From NCBI GenBank assembly GCA_016926175.1, contig JAFGPA010000006.1, positions 1 through 40,074 of the forward strand: DNA of 40,074 nt. The letters are read 5' to 3'. A program made the position numbers and the translations under genes. This document shows positions 24,285 through 32,674 of this stretch, in pieces. The notes under the pieces are model-generated. The model was given only the letters and a program-made list of their open reading frames with translations, was not told the DNA's origin and did not search any database. Source of the stretch: Microcaldota archaeon (GTDB lineage Archaea; Micrarchaeota; Micrarchaeia; Anstonellales; Bilamarchaeaceae). Position 1 is the stretch's first letter; each line of letters starts with the position of its first letter.

Positions 24285-25151
24285 ATGCTAATCGTAATTT
24301 CAGATAATATGGAACAGCGGGTACTGGATGAAATCAGGGAACTGGGCACTGTGGAATATAAGCCCGAAAACCTTGAAAACTCCATAAGGAATGCAGATGT
24401 TCTCATCGTAAGAAGTGCAACAAAAGTTACTGCTGGTCTTTTGTCTAAAGCGGAAAAACTGAGGCTTGTTATAAGGGCGGGGGTTGGTACTGATAACATT
24501 GACCTTGCAGCTGCAAAGGAAAGAAAGGTGGCGGTTAAGAATACGCCGGAAGCTTCCACCAATGCAGTTGCTGAGCTTGCCCTTGGGGTTATAATAACAG
24601 GACTGAGGAATGTGCAGAAGGCACACCATCAGATGAAAAACGGGGAATGGAAGAAAAAGGAGCTTGTAGGAAATGAAATTGCAGGCAAAACACTTGGGGT
24701 CATAGGGTATGGAAGAATTGGACGGTCCCTTGCAGAAAAGGCAAAGGCACTGGGAATGAGGATAATTGCATACAATTCGCCTGCCCCGGATGGGAAGGAA
24801 TTTGTAGATCTTGACGCTTTGTTTGCGCAATCAGATGTCATTTCATTGCATGTACCTTTAACCGCACAAACAAAAAACATGATAAACAGGGAAGCAATTG
24901 CAAAGATGAAAGAGGGGGTTTTCATTGTCAATACCTCGAGAGGAGAGGTAATTGATGAGGAGGCCCTTTATGAAGGATGCAAAACAAAGCTTAAGGGAGC
25001 AGCTCTGGATGTCTACAAAAGCGAGCCTTACACAGGAAAACTGCTTGAACTGGACAATGTTTATTGCACCCCGCACATTGCTGCAAGCACAAAAGAAGCG
25101 CAGGAAAGGATAGGAAGGAGCATTGTTGATATCCTGAAAGAGTTTAAATAA
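24285..25151 (+). CDS. serA: D-3-phosphoglycerate dehydrogenase-like 2-hydroxyacid dehydrogenase, short form
   Basis: A 288-aa D-isomer-specific 2-hydroxyacid dehydrogenase. The core NAD domain has GYGRIGRSLAEKA. The catalytic triad is visible as Arg in NTSRGEVIDEEAL, Glu in KSEPYTGKL and His in CTPHIAAST. The N-terminal substrate domain includes IRAGVGTDNIDLAAA. It lacks the C-terminal ASB and ACT domains of long SerA, as in short archaeal forms. 3-phosphoglycerate is the likely substrate for serine synthesis, but glyoxylate or hydroxypyruvate cannot be excluded. An ATTAAATT box centred 24-25 bp before the ATG, with no Shine-Dalgarno, indicates a leaderless transcript. Confidence 0.88.
   Translation: MLIVISDNMEQRVLDEIRELGTVEYKPENLENSIRNADVLIVRSATKVTAGLLSKAEKLRLVIRAGVGTDNIDLAAAKERKVAVKNTPEASTNAVAELALGVIITGLRNVQKAHHQMKNGEWKKKELVGNEIAGKTLGVIGYGRIGRSLAEKAKALGMRIIAYNSPAPDGKEFVDLDALFAQSDVISLHVPLTAQTKNMINREAIAKMKEGVFIVNTSRGEVIDEEALYEGCKTKLKGAALDVYKSEPYTGKLLELDNVYCTPHIAASTKEAQERIGRSIVDILKEFK
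25143..25150 (+). promoter_or_regulatory. TATA box of the TPR gene
   Basis: TTTAAATA overlaps the last codons of the serA-like gene and is centred 26-27 bp before the TPR ATG. Confidence 0.5.
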
Positions 25152-25172: not shown

Positions 25173-25649
25173 ATGGCAAAACTGAAGAAAGAATCTTATT
25201 TAGCCCAGATTTTTGCATACTTCAAGAATCACGAATATGAGAAAGCATATGAATTCGGGGAAGAGTTCACAGGAAGCCACCCGACTGAAATGATCTCCCA
25301 CCTGCTTCTTGCAAAGGCTGCATTCAGGCTGGAAAGATATGAAAAGGCCGCAGAAGAGGCAAGGGCAGCCTTCAACCTTGCAGCTTCACCTGAGGATATG
25401 GCAGTCTCGGCAATACTTGCAAGCACGGCATACTACCAGACAAAAGAATTCGGAAAGGGATATGAGCTGCTGGAGAAAATGAAAAAAATAAGGAATACCG
25501 AAGAGATAGAAAAGATGCTTTTTATACTCAGCATCGCAAAAAATGACCATAAAAAAGCAATGGAACACCTTGACGAATTGGCAAAAATAAACAGGAAAAC
25601 TGCTGAGGAACTTATTCTGGAATATCTACGAAAAACTCAAGAATCTTAA
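25173..25649 (+). CDS. TPR-repeat protein
   Basis: A 158-aa all-helical protein made of tetratricopeptide-like repeats. Examples are YFKNHEYEKAYEFGEEFTG, ARLE-type AFRLERYEKAAEEARAAF and YYQTKEFGKGYELLEKM. There is no signal peptide or membrane segment. It begins 21 bp after the serA-like stop. Its own TTTAAATA box (25143-25150) overlaps the serA stop and is centred 26-27 bp before the ATG, so it is probably transcribed separately without a leader. It is a likely protein-interaction scaffold whose partner is unknown. Confidence 0.85.
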   Translation: MAKLKKESYLAQIFAYFKNHEYEKAYEFGEEFTGSHPTEMISHLLLAKAAFRLERYEKAAEEARAAFNLAASPEDMAVSAILASTAYYQTKEFGKGYELLEKMKKIRNTEEIEKMLFILSIAKNDHKKAMEHLDELAKINRKTAEELILEYLRKTQES

Positions 25650-25653
25650 ATAC
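25645..25653 (+). promoter_or_regulatory. TATA box deciding the start of the 25674 gene
   Basis: CTTAAATAC overlaps the TPR stop and is centred about 25 bp before the ATG at 25674, arguing against the GTG at 25656. Confidence 0.5.
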
Positions 25654-25673
25654 TCGTGCACAAAATTGTTTTA

Positions 25674-26192
25674 ATGCCCATATCAGCAGAAAGTGAAAAA
25701 CCAGGAAAGGGAAAACGGGACAAAATAGGCAAGGAACCCATGCTAAGCAGTGGAATTGAAACTTTGACAAGAAACCAGATCATTGCAAGGCTCGGGAACA
25801 TCTGCAGCGGATGGAACGATACAGCCGGAAAAATATTGAATATTCCTGAAGAGATGTTTACAAAGAAAACGCAGTCCGCAGAAATTTTTTCTCGAGACAG
25901 GCAGGCAGATCCTTCAGAATTCATAGCATTTTTTCATTTTCGCGGACAACTCCCAAAGGCTAATGACCTGACTATTATGGCATATGAGACTTCCGGAAAT
26001 GCCTATATTGTGATTTATGATCCTGGAAAAAGAATTTTGTTCAGGGACCAGATATCCAGCTATCATTCCAAAAGCAGAAATAACTGGGAGGAAATGGAAA
26101 AATTAATGCAAAATATTGAAGGGAGAGCAGGAAAAGGGGAGATAGCAGTATATGACAATGTTGTAGGCTCTTCCAGAATAGTGAAAAGCTAA
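25674..26192 (+). CDS. Hypothetical protein, unknown family
   Basis: A 172-aa cytosolic protein. The ATG at 25674 (MPISAESEKPGKGKRDK) is chosen over the track GTG at 25656 because a CTTAAATAC box lies about 25 bp before it. A basic disordered N-terminus is followed by an alpha/beta domain (FIAFFHFRGQLPKANDLTIM, NAYIVIYDPGKRILF). No catalytic motif was recognised. It is convergent with the giant gene and overlaps its stop by 3 nt. It could be an accessory to that gene, but nothing in the sequence shows this. Confidence 0.7.
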   Translation: MPISAESEKPGKGKRDKIGKEPMLSSGIETLTRNQIIARLGNICSGWNDTAGKILNIPEEMFTKKTQSAEIFSRDRQADPSEFIAFFHFRGQLPKANDLTIMAYETSGNAYIVIYDPGKRILFRDQISSYHSKSRNNWEEMEKLMQNIEGRAGKGEIAVYDNVVGSSRIVKS

Positions 26193-29100
26193 TGGATATG
26201 TTCTGCCCTTCTGAATATCTGTCTCCAGATTTCCTGCCCGGGCAATTTTGTGCTTGTAGTCAGTCCCCAAAGTTCATTGAAAGCATCTATAGCTTCTTTT
26301 GCATTGAGGGCAGCCCTTCCATCGGGGAAGATAGTAACAACTGTGGAGCCGTTCACTGACTCCATTCTTATAAGGGACATCAGTGCAGTCCACTGGCCTT
26401 CTCTTGCAGCCGGACTGGGTTTTGGCATCTGATGCACTTCTGCAAGGTATTTATCAAAGGCAGACTGACCCTGGCCTTCCAGGAAGTATCGTTTCATGGT
26501 TTCCATATCTCCAGCAGAGAGTTTTCCTGTCGGAGCATAGCGCCTTAATCTTGCAAGAAAACCTTCCGGAAAGCGAATTCCTGTACCTATACCTATAGGC
26601 TGGCCATCGTAGGCAGCAATCCTCCGGGCAACATTTGTCCTGAATGCAGGATCCCTTCCTACAGAACGATACCATGTCTGGGCTCCTGCAAACATATCAG
26701 CTGCCGCCTCGCTGAAAGTATAGCTTCTGGAAACTGCCCCTGCATTGTTCAGGGCAGAATCAATAATTCTCACTGAAGGACCGATAGTGCCTGCATATTC
26801 CGACATCATTGCATTAAAGCTGAGGCCATCAGGCTTCATTCTTGCAAGGAAGCACGCACCAGTATCGGTGTCAATCCTTCCAACTTCATAAATATAGTAC
26901 CTGCCGTCTTTTGCCTTCATCACAATGCCTTCAACATTGCCTGCGAATTTTGGGGTTAGCGATCCGGATGCTGTAACACCTTCCTCAAACAACAGGTAAT
27001 TCCTTGATGCCAGCAGCTTGCCTGCATCTGCCCGGCTTATTTCTCCAAGCATGGAGAACATGTTCTGCCTGTGCGAATCATACAGGCCAACATTCATTAC
27101 ACCTGTCTGGGAAAACCCAAACCTGCGGAATATCAGTTTTCTTGCAGCAAGGGGATCGGTTTCAAGCAGGCTTCGGAATATTGGATTCTGGGCTATGAAT
27201 TCATCAAGATCTTTCATGGAAGTTGCACTTCTTGCCTGGAAGGTTATGGTAGTTCTTGCACGCGGAAGAGTTCCGCTGAAATTTGCCATGTGCTGCATAA
27301 GACCATATTCCTGGTAGCCCTCTGCACCAACCATGGCCAGCTGCCGGCCTCCGACCCGGGTAACAACCTGTGGAGCGGCAATTCCTGCTTCCATAACAAG
27401 TTCTGCACCAAACTTTTCAGCAGAAAGATTCTGCAGTTTCAGGATGAATGAAACCCTCTCTCCTGCCCTTGTTTCGGCCGTAACAATAAATGCGCCCTGA
27501 ACGCCTTTCTTATAGTCAAAAACCCGGATCTGGGATCCTGCAGGTATTTTCCGGCCTCCAAAAACAAGCCTTCCTTCTGAAACAAGCCTGGAAACGTTGC
27601 TGCTCAAAGCACCGAGAACATCTATTGATCCCAGGTTCATGGTGAAATTGGCAACGATACCTTCTGTTTCAAGCTTTTGTATTAGGGAAAAAACTCTTGA
27701 TGATGTGCTCCGGATATTTCTTTCCTGAAGTATGGCAATTGAAAGCTGGCTTGCAGTTTCCTCGGTTATAAGGCTCGTGTGGGAAAGTTCTGAAACACCG
27801 CGAAGATAACTAAGCCTTTGGGCAGCACTGGCCCTTCCGATGCTCAGTAGCCCCGAAAGAATCCTTTCCTGCTCTTGGTAAGAACGCGAAAGAAAATGCC
27901 TTATCACCGGACTGTTCAGGGCTTCTGGGCCTTCTGCCGTACCTATTGTTTTTTCTATTAATGAAACAAGGTTTTGGGATTCAGCAGGCAATTTCCTTGC
28001 TGCACTTGCTGCCTTTGCTGCAAGTGGAATGGCAGGCAGGAACATAAGCACATCTGTTGCAAGAATAAGAGGCTCTATTTTTCCGGTTCTGGACATTCTT
28101 GCAACATCTTCCCGTGTAACGAAAATTCCGGCGCCAACCGTTCCTGCTTCTGTCGATGTAACGAAAACAGGAGACAGCATTCTCATCGATGAAAGACCGA
28201 TAATGCCCATGCCAAGGGTAATCGCTCCTGATCGAAGATGTTCCAGGGCCTTCTTTTCCTGCTCTTCAGTATCGGCTGAAATATATGCGTAGGACCCCTG
28301 GCCAAGCTCCATCGTGCCATAGGCGGTTGCCCCTGCTGAAAGGCCGAACTGGACTGCTGAAGGGAGTGCACGCCATGCAACCTGACCAAGGCCGATTACT
28401 CCGCGCACTCCAAACCCTCCGGCTGCCAGAGTTACAGGATCATACCACACCCCTTGTATTGGCATATCAGTGAGTGCATTTTCAATGTCCCGGAGAGTCA
28501 GTTTGTAATAAGACTGGGCCTTTGCACCCAGCATTCCCACTTGATTGTCTATAGCATCAAAAGCTGAAGTTCCTGGATTTTTTTTCCCAAACATGCCTTC
28601 AAGAGTTCCGCCTGCCTTATGTATTTCAACTTCATCAGGACTGTAGCTGGCTATTATCCCCGAGGCAATTTTTACTGAATCATATTGCGCTTCCACAAGC
28701 AGAACATAATCGTCCATCTCTTCCTTGCCGGTTCGTGCACAGCCAGTTGCAGTTATGTTGCCCCGGGTCTTTTGCTCAAGATCTGAGAATTGCGCCCTCA
28801 TTTTTTTCAATATGGCTGATGATTCTGAAATGAACCTCTTTGAAGCTTCTGCCCTTGCCTTAACATAACTTTCAAAATTGGCAGAAATATTATAATACTT
28901 GAAGATCTCATTCGTTTTTGCAGCGGCTTTTCTTTGCAGGGAAAAAATCGCCTGTTCAAACCTTGAAGCTGTTTTCCTGAGAGGCGGCTCTTCGATTGCA
29001 GCAACTCTGTAAAAGAAAGCCTGCATAAAATGGCCTTCGATTCTCTGGTAGAATCCAATTGCATCTTTCCTGCGCTCTTCAAGAAAATATCTTGCCTTTA

Positions 29101-30505
29101 GCCCCGTAACGCCTTCAAAACCAACCCGGCCAAGCTCAACAGCAGCAGCCCTTACCCTTCGGATTGACTGGATAATACCGGCAAGACCTGTGCCTTCAGT
29201 AATGATCTGACTTGTTTTTTGGAATGCCAGCATGATTTCATCCTGCATTTTGTTGCTGTTCTTTCCGCTAACCTCAAGATCGAGTGCCTCTGTTATTTTT
29301 GCCTTTGCAAAGCTGGCATAGACACGGCCTTTTTCATAAAAAGCCTGCAAAACGCCTGAAAGACCCTTTTTCTTAAATTCTTCGTATGTCATTCCGGTTA
29401 TTTCCAGAAACTTTTTTTCGCTGAATTTCCCCTCTTCCTGAAAAATGCTGAATCCGGTAAGTGAAACTGCAACTCTCTCCAGGTCTTCTGCGCTTATATC
29501 TCCAAAAGATATGGAAAGTTGGGAAAGCTGAAGGTGCTGCAAAACAAGCCTGTTGATTCTGCTTGCTTTTTCGAGCTTGCCTTTTGCAACATATTCCTGC
29601 GCTTTCTCAAGATATTGTCCAAGAGTGCCTTCCTGCGCACCTGCAGAAACTGCCAGTGAAGTGCCGGCAAGGTTAAGGCTTGCAACTGCAGAAAGAAGCC
29701 TGGATTTTTCCATGTAATTGCGTGACATCTTCAGATAGCCCTGAACTGCTTCTGTTCCGTAATCCCGGGCCCTGGCAGCTAACCCCAGATAATATGACAT
29801 GGCAATTGCACGCTGTTTTGCCAAGCGCGGTTTGCCGGCTTCAATATCACGATAGATCTCCTGCTGCTGGATTTCTAGAAATTGCTTTTCTTCAGGGGAA
29901 ACGGAGGAGCTCTCAAGTTCTCTGGAAGCAACAACATATGCTGCAATCGCATCAATTGTTGCCTGTGTGGGGCTTTCCTGAAGCCTGGATACAAGAAGGG
30001 CTTTTTTATCTCCCTCAAGCGAAGCGGGAATATAATTCTCATTTCTGAGGATTATGGTTTCACCGTCAATAGAATAGGAGATACCAGATTCGCTGAGCTT
30101 ATCCCCGTTCTTTCTTATCCATTCGCCAAGCGCCTTGCCGGCAAGTGAAATTGCCTCAACGTTTCCTGAGAGAAACTCATTGAACTGCTGGTTGTCTTTT
30201 GGAGCTGGCGCGTGCCTAAAAATTTTGCCGTCTACTGCGCCCCCGTCATAAAATTTGAGCTCCATCTCAAAAGCCTGTGCCATAACCGGATTTATCTTCC
30301 TAAGCTGTTCGAGAAGCTGCTGACCCACCTGCCTCCGGAATTCCGGTTCCTGGTCTGCAAATTTTCTGCTTGCAGTACCTTCAATAAATTGTATCTCTGA
30401 ACTCAGCCAGTTTGGAGGAAGATTGTATTGTGCAGTAATCTGTCCGATAACATCTGTTGCAATCTGTCTTTTTTCTGCGGCAGTAAGATGCTGTTGCTTG
30501 GACAT
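26189..30505 (-). CDS. Giant protein of unknown function with hydrophobic centre and possible kinase-like region
   Basis: About 1438 aa from the ATG at 30505 (MSKQQHLTAAEKRQ). That start is favoured over 30520 because the AAATATATTT box is centred 26-27 bp before it. Residues 1-650 are largely helical and charged, rich in repeat-like helices around 180-330. Three hydrophobic stretches lie at about 690-840 (VRGVIGLGQVAWRAL, AITLGMGIIGLSSM, DVLMFLPAIPLAAKAA). From about 1000 on, SFILKL, a helix with Glu (EKFGAELVMEAG) and LYDSHRQNMF resemble the Lys, Glu and D-x-H-x-x-N elements of PI3/4-kinase/HipA-like folds. There is no signal peptide or known domain, and codon use looks like its neighbours. 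Function is unknown. Confidence 0.85.
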   Translation of the reverse strand: MSKQQHLTAAEKRQIATDVIGQITAQYNLPPNWLSSEIQFIEGTASRKFADQEPEFRRQVGQQLLEQLRKINPVMAQAFEMELKFYDGGAVDGKIFRHAPAPKDNQQFNEFLSGNVEAISLAGKALGEWIRKNGDKLSESGISYSIDGETIILRNENYIPASLEGDKKALLVSRLQESPTQATIDAIAAYVVASRELESSSVSPEEKQFLEIQQQEIYRDIEAGKPRLAKQRAIAMSYYLGLAARARDYGTEAVQGYLKMSRNYMEKSRLLSAVASLNLAGTSLAVSAGAQEGTLGQYLEKAQEYVAKGKLEKASRINRLVLQHLQLSQLSISFGDISAEDLERVAVSLTGFSIFQEEGKFSEKKFLEITGMTYEEFKKKGLSGVLQAFYEKGRVYASFAKAKITEALDLEVSGKNSNKMQDEIMLAFQKTSQIITEGTGLAGIIQSIRRVRAAAVELGRVGFEGVTGLKARYFLEERRKDAIGFYQRIEGHFMQAFFYRVAAIEEPPLRKTASRFEQAIFSLQRKAAAKTNEIFKYYNISANFESYVKARAEASKRFISESSAILKKMRAQFSDLEQKTRGNITATGCARTGKEEMDDYVLLVEAQYDSVKIASGIIASYSPDEVEIHKAGGTLEGMFGKKNPGTSAFDAIDNQVGMLGAKAQSYYKLTLRDIENALTDMPIQGVWYDPVTLAAGGFGVRGVIGLGQVAWRALPSAVQFGLSAGATAYGTMELGQGSYAYISADTEEQEKKALEHLRSGAITLGMGIIGLSSMRMLSPVFVTSTEAGTVGAGIFVTREDVARMSRTGKIEPLILATDVLMFLPAIPLAAKAASAARKLPAESQNLVSLIEKTIGTAEGPEALNSPVIRHFLSRSYQEQERILSGLLSIGRASAAQRLSYLRGVSELSHTSLITEETASQLSIAILQERNIRSTSSRVFSLIQKLETEGIVANFTMNLGSIDVLGALSSNVSRLVSEGRLVFGGRKIPAGSQIRVFDYKKGVQGAFIVTAETRAGERVSFILKLQNLSAEKFGAELVMEAGIAAPQVVTRVGGRQLAMVGAEGYQEYGLMQHMANFSGTLPRARTTITFQARSATSMKDLDEFIAQNPIFRSLLETDPLAARKLIFRRFGFSQTGVMNVGLYDSHRQNMFSMLGEISRADAGKLLASRNYLLFEEGVTASGSLTPKFAGNVEGIVMKAKDGRYYIYEVGRIDTDTGACFLARMKPDGLSFNAMMSEYAGTIGPSVRIIDSALNNAGAVSRSYTFSEAAADMFAGAQTWYRSVGRDPAFRTNVARRIAAYDGQPIGIGTGIRFPEGFLARLRRYAPTGKLSAGDMETMKRYFLEGQGQSAFDKYLAEVHQMPKPSPAAREGQWTALMSLIRMESVNGSTVVTIFPDGRAALNAKEAIDAFNELWGLTTSTKLPGQEIWRQIFRRAEHIH

Positions 30506-30540: not shown

Positions 30541-30888
30541 CTATTCTATTTCAGCTTCTACCACTTCTGGCTCTATTATGATTCCTTTTCCCGGTTCCAG
30601 GAAATCCCTGGGTATTTTGCCTTTGGGAAATACAACCGTGGTATTGTGTTTTATCGGAAATTGCAACTCTTCTGCAATGCGCACCATCTCGTGTGTCGGT
30701 ATGTAAAGTTTTGAAACCAGATATTTTATTGTGCCTTGGGAAGTAGTTTCTTCCATCACTGAAAGTCTGTGATTCTGGCGAAGCCCCTGGACATGTACCT
30801 TTACATCAGCATAGCCTTGCTTTAGGATCTGTTCCCTGTTTATGTTTACCAACTCCTTCGAAAAACAGTATGTCGTCCCCTTTTTCAA
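30541..30888 (-). CDS. Small hypothetical protein overlapping the NAD kinase 3' end, start uncertain
   Basis: Up to 115 aa, starting at a TTG at 30888 that lies 83 bp inside the NAD kinase gene in another frame. Shorter options are the TTG at about 30852 or GTG/ATG codons at about 30759. The distal part (VSKLYIPTHEMVRIAEEL, HNTTVVFPKGKIPRDFLEPG) has a protein-like pattern and continues well past the NAD kinase stop. The gene is therefore probably real, translated by coupling to NAD kinase. There is no known domain. A frameshifted extension of NAD kinase was considered; the kinase already appears complete, so two genes are favoured. Confidence 0.6.
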   Translation of the reverse strand: MKKGTTYCFSKELVNINREQILKQGYADVKVHVQGLRQNHRLSVMEETTSQGTIKYLVSKLYIPTHEMVRIAEELQFPIKHNTTVVFPKGKIPRDFLEPGKGIIIEPEVVEAEIE

Positions 30889-31522
30889 TCTTTACTTTTT
30901 CCCGGAAGTTTTTCACGAATATGCCGTCAATTACAAGAGCTGATTCCTCTTCTGTAGAAATCTGGAGAACCGCATCTTCCGGAACTGTTTTTGCAGAATA
31001 GCATCTCCTGTAGGGGCAGATAGGAACGACTACAAATTTTCTGGACAACGGGTCGATGGCTCCCCCCCCTGCAGAATAGGCATAGCCTGCGCTTCCAAGC
31101 GCAGTGGAAATTATTATCCCGTCGCCGCGAAAAGTGCTGTTATCAACGTTGATGGAAATTACACGATAGTCAGTTGCATGGAGCACCAGGTCATTGATAA
31201 CAGAATATTTTTTTCTGCCGACGGTTGCCTTAAGGGTCATCAGCTTCACCGATTTTTTTTTCAGAAGATTTATGATGCCCTTCCATTGCGATTTTTCCAG
31301 CTGGCAAAGATAGCTTCTGTTGCTTCCAATTCCGGCAACAACTCCCTGAAGGCGATTGCAGAAATTTCCGAACAGGATTGTACCGTCTCCACCGATGCAT
31401 ATGGTTGCGTCTGCTTCGCTATCAACTATTTCGTGGCCGTGGGATTGCAGAAAACAAGAAAGTTTATCCGAAAGCCCTACTGCCCATGGCTTCTTGGAAT
31501 TGTGTATGAGCTTGAGCTTCAT
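30806..31522 (-). CDS. nadK: NAD kinase (ATP-dependent)
   Basis: A 238-aa kinase producing NADP+. The diagnostic CIGGDGTILFGNF (GGDG) motif lies at about residue 40. The second signature, GDGIIISTALGSAGYAYSAGG, corresponds to the usual GDGxxxSTPTGSTAY, with Ala-Leu in place of Pro-Thr. INDLVLH takes the place of the NE motif, with Asp for Glu. The track start at 31582 adds a hydrophobic leader that overlaps ftsZ. The ATG at 31522 is preferred: it begins MKLKLIHNSKKPWA and is 26-27 bp after a TTTTATATTT box, so this gene is likely a separate leaderless transcript downstream of ftsZ. Confidence 0.9.
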   Translation of the reverse strand: MKLKLIHNSKKPWAVGLSDKLSCFLQSHGHEIVDSEADATICIGGDGTILFGNFCNRLQGVVAGIGSNRSYLCQLEKSQWKGIINLLKKKSVKLMTLKATVGRKKYSVINDLVLHATDYRVISINVDNSTFRGDGIIISTALGSAGYAYSAGGGAIDPLSRKFVVVPICPYRRCYSAKTVPEDAVLQISTEEESALVIDGIFVKNFREKVKIEKGDDILFFEGVGKHKQGTDPKARLC

Positions 31523-31543
31523 GAGAAAAAGAAGGTGCAAAAG

Positions 31544-31553
31544 AAATATAAAA
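31544..31553 (-). promoter_or_regulatory. TATA box of nadK and pyrimidine-rich ftsZ end
   Basis: TTTTATATTT on the minus strand, centred 26-27 bp before the ATG at 31522. The T-rich run around it directly follows the ftsZ stop and could also terminate ftsZ transcription. Confidence 0.5.
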
Positions 31554-31565
31554 TAAAGAGAAAAA

Positions 31566-32651
31566 TTAACCAAGGATTTCAAGGTCCCTGGAGTATTCCG
31601 GCATCATTGAAGTTTCTTCTTCCTCAACCATCGAAGATCCTGCAACTGAAGCGCCTTTAACTCCGGTTACGATTGCAACTATTTCAAGCTTGCTCTCGTA
31701 ATTCTGCATGATTCTGGCACCCCATTTGACATTCGCCTCGGAATCCATCTTCTCGGTTATAATCTCTCCTGCCTTGATAGCATCACCAAGGGTAAGGTCG
31801 GAACCGCCTGAAATGTGTATGAGTGCGCCCTTTGCACCTTCGAAATCAACATCAAGAAGCCTGTTCTTGATAACACCCTGGGCTGCTCCGGTAACCTTGT
31901 CGTTTCCTTTGCCTTCGCCTACTGCAATGAAACCGACTCCTCCACCTTCCATGATTGCCCTTACATCTGCAAAGTCAATGTTGATCAATGATGGCTGGGT
32001 AATCGTCCAGACAAGACCGGAAATTGCCCTTGCAAGGATTTCATCGGCAACTGCGAATGCTTCTGCCATCGGAAGGTTTGGAACAAGTTGCACGAGCCTG
32101 TTATTGTCAAGAATAATTACAGAATCGCATGATTTCTTCAACAGCTTGATACCTTCCTCTGCTTTTTTCTTTCTTGCCCTTTCCAGAGCAAACGGGTAGG
32201 TAACCATGGCAACTACAATTGCGCCCTGCTCTTTTGCAATCTGTGCTACAATAGGTGCAGCTCCGCCACCGGTACCGCCGCCCATACCAGCACATACGAA
32301 TACAAGGTGTGCATTTTCAAGGGATTTTTCAATCAATGGCCTGTCTACTTCTGCAGATTTGGCACCTACATCGGGGTAGCCGCCTGCACCAAGACCTTTT
32401 GTAACTGATTTGCCTATAAGGATCTTTTGCGCTCTTTCATGAACAATGTTCAGGTGCTGCTTATCAGTATTGATTGCAACGAGGTCGCTTCCTTTAACGC
32501 CTGATTTTATCAGTCTGTTAATGGTGTTATTTCCTGCACCGCCAATACCGATGGTGACAATTTTGATTGTCTCTGAACTCATCGCTTCTTTTCCTGAATC
32601 TTCCTTTTCCGGGGACGTTTCGCCCATAACGGATCTTACCAAGTCTTCCAT
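31566..32651 (-). CDS. ftsZ: Cell division GTPase FtsZ (FtsZ2-like)
   Basis: A 361-aa tubulin-family GTPase forming the division ring. [13 protein letters not shown] is the first nucleotide loop. The tubulin signature appears as [11 protein letters not shown], with Gly where GGGTG[ST]G normally has Ser/Thr. The T7 region is [11 protein letters not shown], with the synergy Asp of the GTPase site. [12 protein letters not shown] and NVKWGARI resemble archaeal FtsZ2. The short tail ends [10 protein letters not shown] and may be the partner-binding peptide. The ATG at 32651 with AAAGGTG upstream is preferred over the track GTG at 32660. A CTTAAAT box at about 32716 gives a leader of about 40 nt that begins with a perfect inverted repeat. 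Confidence 0.97.
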
Positions 32652-32674
32652 AATATTCACCTTTAGTCGCCTTT

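Follow-up and report, generated by a model that had tools for sequence, protein, structure and literature searches.

A giant Micrarchaeota protein with a predicted PI3K-like kinase module and a co-diverging partner, encoded in a probable accessory cassette

The PI3K-like kinases are central to growth, membrane, and DNA-damage signaling in eukaryotes and have been treated as eukaryote-specific; a survey of microbial kinomes in 2007 regarded PI3K as connected with other kinases solely through structure and key residues (PMC1821047). Among DPANN archaea, giant surface proteins (SPEARE) have been described in Nanohaloarchaeota, which reach 9409 aa and carry a Sec signal peptide, Ig-like repeats, and a VirB4-like ATPase (PMC10266531). 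No description of giant kinases in Micrarchaeota was found in the literature, the coverage of which was incomplete. The locus presented here lies in a window of 40,074 nucleotides (the whole stretch of DNA analyzed) from a Micrarchaeota MAG of 1.05 Mb. What is new in this analysis is a candidate PI3K-like kinase family that resides in giant proteins and is accompanied by a partner gene co-diverging with it.

The giant gene and distribution of its kinase module

The giant gene is an open frame of the minus strand (Table 1), and reading of the same positions on the plus strand gave 41 stops. An upstream in-frame ATG would extend the protein to 1443 aa. The ORF of ~1438 aa noted in the preliminary description was confirmed as real, and the possibility of a random long ORF was rejected owing to the homologues and conserved residues. 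The protein had also been called an orphan, which was borne out for Pfam, NCBIfam, and PDB sequences, where no match was obtained apart from one to NCBIfam at chance level (E 0.085, 11.5 bits vs. a cut-off of 700), but not within Micrarchaeota, where relatives exist. No adhesion domain was evident. Each giant gene takes up roughly 0.4–2% of a ~1 Mb genome (4.3 kb in the window, ~26 kb in genome G006).

Neighboring genes in the window include those for PurP, FtsZ, NAD kinase, and a 2-hydroxyacid dehydrogenase; together with homologue contigs assigned to Candidatus Micrarchaeota, they put the window in this phylum. Three FtsZ-like genes were observed in the archaeal genome of 1 Mb (G000:C7 31566-32660, G000:C14 11907-12872, and G000:C39 12127-13062; 100, 52, and 42% identical to the FtsZ of the window), and three were also present in most genomes of the genus.

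Table 1. Features of the cassette and its flanks in the window
Feature	Position	Strand	Remarks
2-Hydroxyacid dehydrogenase gene	24285..25151	+	Other side of insertion site
TPR protein gene	25173..25649	+	Pfam TPR/ANAPC3; 6 bp upstream of partner gene; part of inserted segment
Cognate partner gene, 178 aa	25656..26192	+	Tail-to-tail with giant gene, 4-nt overlap
Giant gene	26189..30505	-	Protein of 1438 aa without Pfam match; signal peptide not evident
C-terminal tail behind kinase, residues 1312-1438	26192..26572	-	
Predicted PI3K-like kinase module, residues ~976-1311	26573..27580	-	phmmer, profile, model and fold search
Putative metal-binding motif GRIDTD, residues 1209-1214 (D1212, D1214)	26864..26881	-	Counterpart of PI3K HIDFG
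Putative catalytic loop YDSHRQNMF, residues 1142-1150 (D1143, H1145, N1148)	27056..27082	-	D, N invariant in 23 copies
Putative β3 lysine SFILKLQ, residues 1019-1025 (K1023)	27431..27451	-	Lys in 21/23 copies
Glycine-rich strand turn GVQGAF, residues 1001-1006	27488..27505	-	G invariant in A1
Central region, residues 691-860	27926..28435	-	One clearly hydrophobic segment, 812-830
N-terminal ~690 residues, putative helix-rich scaffold	28436..30505	-	Residues 84-550 homologous to G007 giant protein
Conserved 93-aa gene (orf93)	30541..30822	-	Borders insertion on the side of NAD kinase and FtsZ

The N-terminal half, described earlier as helical, indeed showed a helical periodicity above that of shuffled sequences over residues 1-690 (z 3.1), and this part may serve as a scaffold. 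It aligned clearly only with the giant protein L021 of genome G007 (phmmer E 1e-18). The central region showed weak homology to L021 and L032. The three hydrophobic stretches ascribed to it could hardly be sustained, as only one segment exceeded a mean Kyte-Doolittle value of 1.6.

The homologous stretches of relatives aligned chiefly with residues 857-1310, within very long frames (1355-8609 aa). The kinase module matched its homologue in genome G026 with a phmmer E-value of 7e-44, and the A5 profile, the training set of which contains the window sequence, matched the module at 1e-88. A profile search of 296 Micrarchaeota genomes identified 23 well-formed copies in 14 genomes from three genera of one family, along with one borderline match (E 0.009) in another family. 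In most copies, the module is located near the C-terminus, mostly inside giant ORFs. A whole-protein scan of genome contigs revealed no relative, nor was any relative of the giant protein found among viral contigs, phages, and plasmids. A chance motif match was rejected, as independently found copies retain the motifs. The kinase tree resolved two types, A and B (support 99/99).

Several other arrangements were also observed. A stand-alone kinase-module protein of 488 aa (L062 6615-8078, minus strand, G015:C22) carries a DFG-like IDSG motif, and no partner gene was found beside it. Some of the giant proteins include calcineurin-like phosphoesterase or HD domains (L024 aa 1233-1326, L065 aa 275-375, and L022 aa 1758-1895). 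Downstream of some giant genes, separate genes of ~330 aa copy the C-terminal ~300 residues of the giant proteins in an orphan-module pattern (L095 2926-3939, minus; L065 6197-7174, plus; L135 2111-3127, plus). A third, more divergent kinase-like type (C-type), present in L130 aa 501-705 (G060) and the L095 giant protein aa 3506-3705 (G011), shows the motifs G-x-P-D-x-H-x-x-N-Y-R ... R-I-D-[LF]-E-N without the β3 Lys. This type was weakly matched by two large proteins from another family of the order, L171 7504-11940 (plus; G070, 1479 aa) and L172 5463-9053 (plus; G047, 1197 aa), which contain D-x-H-x-x-N followed by R-I-D and have no partner homologue nearby.

Predicted fold and active-site residues

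The AlphaFold2 model of the module from the window (12 rows, window query) had a pLDDT of 62 and a pTM of 0.61, and PI3K/PIKK chains made up 48 of its 50 best PDB matches, all weak (E 0.02 and up). As a fold could not be assigned firmly from this model, the consensus-like G026 homologue (~32% identical to the window module) was folded with 23 rows, resulting in a pLDDT of 92.4 and a pTM of 0.89. Foldseek analysis of the G026 model against the PDB showed PI3Kδ/γ or Vps34 as all of the best 12 matches (E 2.7e-5 to 4.7e-4, prob up to 1.0), followed later by Rio1, Bud32/PRPK, YabT, CtkA, PI4KII, WaaP, APH, and HipA; its BFVD matches included giant-virus PI3Ks. The PDB matches listed are kinase folds, with TM-scores of only 0.22-0.35 by query and a large rmsd. 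The low TM-scores suggest that the module is a divergent PI3K relative with a partial fold match, rather than a close copy.

This is in agreement with the preliminary description, which had suspected a hidden PI3/4-kinase- or HipA-like fold near the C-terminus and would have yielded to a confident fold unrelated to kinases: the G026 model places PI3Kδ/Vps34 first and HipA lower. FAM20, also proposed there for comparison, was not among the 50 best matches of the model; a FAM20/Fj identity was rejected on this ground and because no signal peptide was evident. A HipA-like toxin kinase, already disfavored, appears very improbable. The HipA loop also reads D-x-H-x-x-N, and both CtkA and HipA are among the fold matches, but they rank far below PI3K (E 4e-3 for the HipA-like CtkA and 1.3e-2 for HipA, 3dnt), and neither a Pfam match to HipA_N/HipA_C nor a HipB-like DNA-binding neighbor (25173-26192 and 30541-32660) was found.

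The profile-profile comparison proposed earlier also pointed to PI3K. Alignment of the module profile with three PI3K/PI4K/PIKK sequences by hhalign scored 32.1 (pairwise E 0.001, at a reported probability of only 21%), exceeding the highest of 60 column shuffles (18.5), the reversed control (11.6), and PKA (11.4). A direct search for the PF00454 profile gave no match above the cut-off, and there was no PDB sequence match; formal PF00454 membership was rejected, the profile being without a match. By its predicted anatomy, the module would be a PI3K-type kinase, yet it lies outside PF00454 by the profile test.

The putative active site contains, in the order found in the PKL superfamily, the β3 Lys, the catalytic Asp and Asn, and the metal-binding Asp. 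Residues D1143, N1148, and D1212 were invariant in 23/23 module copies and D1214 was conserved in at least 90%. The Lys at position 1023 was lost in L061 and L096 and is also absent from the divergent C-type, while H1145 was kept in 12 of 13 A-type and 2 of 10 other copies. Of the kinase-like signature described earlier, for which non-conservation of Lys, Asp, His, and Asn was to be the refutation, Lys, Asp, and Asn were retained; the His was conserved in one sub-type (A) only, and the helix Glu (E1035) was variable. Three copies detected only with a 20-row profile built without them kept D-R-x-x-R-N and D-x-D, with the Lys in two of the three.

Many A-type copies contain K-x-x-D-L-R-x-D, G-x-x-D-[RSNAG]-H-x-x-N, and I-D-T-D, ordered as in the PI3K/PIKK series K-x-G-D-D-L-R-Q-D, G-x-G-D-R-H-x-x-N, and H-I-D-F-G (segments of p110α, mTOR, and PI4KB were checked against PDB chains). 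The exact loop G-x-x-D-R-H-x-x-N was found in five A-type copies (L023, L025, L027, L028-A, and L058) and one B-type copy (L028-B); the loop of the window, G-x-x-D-S-H-R-Q-N, differs from it by Ser for Arg. The DFG metal motif (HIDFG) was not present, the corresponding sequence being IDTD in most copies, IDSG in L062, and RIDFEN in one divergent C-type copy. In the likely mechanism of ATP-dependent phosphotransfer, the ATP phosphates would be bound by K1023 and the metal by D1212 together with D1214, and the catalytic loop would comprise D1143 and N1148.

Kinase-like folds also house AMP transferases and small-molecule kinases. The replacement of DFG by IDTD and the loss of the Lys in L061, L096, and the C-type could suit a pseudokinase, or an enzyme that acts on small molecules or transfers nucleotides, with the partner as a substrate carrier. 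This is unlikely, as PI3K and not APH came first in the fold search, and the invariance of Asp, Asn, and Asp in 23/23 copies suggests catalysis. Some family members may be pseudokinases, with IDTD in place of DFG and the Lys absent in two copies.

Partner gene and insertion of the cassette

Homologues of the partner gene adjoin giant kinase genes in other genomes, usually in convergent orientation. The partner protein showed no match in Pfam, NCBIfam, or PDB sequences. It was found in 18 of the 296 Micrarchaeota genomes, i.e., in 14/14 with the kinase module and in 4/282 others, which are G003, G005, G060, and one more with a borderline match. The G005 copy sits at the end of a contig, next to a gene that in other genomes separates the partner from the giant gene, and the G060 copy adjoins a giant frame whose D-A-H-x-x-N / R-I-D-x-E-N domain has diverged even further. 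A genuine exception is G003, which has a partner homologue and no recognized kinase. The neighbor of this homologue (L129 504-1046, minus) encodes a surface protein with a NosD-like beta-helix.

Where a locus has two kinase modules, at least two partners are present. In the partner tree, the partners of B-only loci formed one supported clade (97/98), except for one very short row, and each of the two mixed loci holds partners of both types. Tree distances of kinase and partner were correlated over 16 pairs (r 0.74, p 2e-4), two of which, from the mixed loci, were paired with the type known, and over 11 A-type pairs (r 0.66, p 2e-4); this test is inflated by common descent and provides support, not proof. 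Partner types match kinase types, and the partner co-diverges with the kinase. An adjacent cognate small protein, a characteristic of polymorphic toxins, is present as judged by linkage and co-divergence.

The gene order FtsZ–NAD kinase–93-aa gene–dehydrogenase is kept in eight relatives and represents a block shared throughout the genus. The gap between the 93-aa gene and the dehydrogenase ranges from 11 bases to 1.5 kb in relatives (within 200 bases in G006, G011, G005, and G013), and in the window it is occupied by the TPR, partner, and giant genes (5.4 kb). Neither the TPR gene nor the partner gene was found in the syntenic blocks of the eight relatives. The placement of the cassette between genes that are neighbors in relatives indicates that it is accessory. 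It is likely that the kinase–partner pair, joined here by the TPR gene, constitutes an accessory cassette occurring at different loci within one Micrarchaeota family.

Proposed function and comparison with known systems

The best reading, which is probably correct, is that the giant protein is a PI3K-like kinase of PIKK shape, accessory to the genome and paired with a cognate partner. Most of the chain would be helical and would present an ATP-using kinase domain near its C-terminus. The domain would represent a new family whose nearest kin within the protein-kinase-like superfamily is the PI3-kinase/PIKK branch. It would be specific to the small partner and most likely under its control; the partner would bind the kinase and may be an inhibitor/immunity protein, chaperone, or regulatory subunit. 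Kinase and partner travel together through related genomes, which suggests a phosphorylation system of two proteins that has not been described before and in which some substrate would presumably be phosphorylated. The convergent arrangement is unusual for toxin–immunity pairs and counts against this explanation.

The two-gene cassette is compatible with the cell-contact, effector, or host-interaction role suggested in the preliminary description and equally with internal signaling. For internal signaling, which is possible though somewhat doubtful, a cytoplasmic helical scaffold would sense the state of the cell and the kinase would phosphorylate proteins or lipids, the partner being a regulatory subunit or the main substrate. 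The architecture parallels that of PIKKs and, in some relatives, a calcineurin-like phosphoesterase or HD domain occurs in the same chain, but the distribution is patchy and accessory, the N-terminal part diverges very fast, and no HEAT, FAT, or FATC family match was obtained. The absence of an evident signal peptide slightly favors such PIKK-like signaling, and the accessory, patchy, and modular nature slightly favors an effector delivered by contact. The latter, in which the giant protein is exported into neighbors or an archaeal host for its kinase to modify a target there, with the producer shielded by the partner, is on the whole rather unlikely. Accessory insertion, cognate co-diverging sub-types, several partners at some loci, and the repetition of ~300-aa C-terminal parts as separate downstream genes are consistent with it, and Micrarchaeota include host-dependent species (PMC8975820). 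Arguing against it, neither a signal peptide nor a trafficking domain is evident, the partner gene is convergent instead of downstream in the same operon, and the kinase end is conserved and the N-terminal part variable, which is the reverse of polymorphic toxins.

The wider proposal of an accessory DPANN two-component system, with giant (up to ~8600 aa) PIKK-shaped kinases in which each PI3K-like module has its own partner, acting on the archaeal host cell or in internal signaling, is made tentatively and falls only a little short of being probable. If true, this system would represent a class of prokaryotic kinases whose architecture resembles that of eukaryotes. The presence of a divergent family in tiny archaea, with giant scaffolds and a co-diverging partner, would bear on the origin of the PI3K branch. 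The giant kinase is also a concrete candidate, open to expression, for the means by which host-dependent DPANN archaea signal or affect their neighbors.

Among known systems, polymorphic toxins with immunity proteins are similar in having a large modular protein, an adjacent small cognate partner, and, at some loci, repeated C-terminal modules; the archaeal giants differ in the convergent partner gene, the lack of a trafficking or pre-toxin domain or signal, and the conserved module being a putative kinase. HipA/CtkA share the kinase-like fold and the D-x-H-x-x-N loop, whereas the archaeal module has a weaker fold match to them, no HipB, and is embedded in a giant protein. SPEARE are likewise giant proteins of DPANN archaea, but their Sec signal, Ig-like repeats, and ATPase domain were not seen in the Micrarchaeota giants. 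The PIKKs (mTOR, ATM, and DNA-PK) are comparable in the giant chain, long helical part, PI3K-like kinase near the C-terminus, and short tail; the window protein has no HEAT/FAT/FATC match in Pfam, and the archaeal giants vary widely in size and N-terminal sequence and have a dedicated small partner gene alongside. Compared with the PI3/PI4-kinase family (PF00454; p110, Vps34, PI4K, and PIKKs), the archaeal module differs in the lack of a Pfam match, IDTD for DFG, and inserts between motifs, and resembles it in the best fold matches, a profile-profile score well above shuffled controls, and, in A-type copies, the same motif order K..DLR.D, G..DRH..N, and ID...
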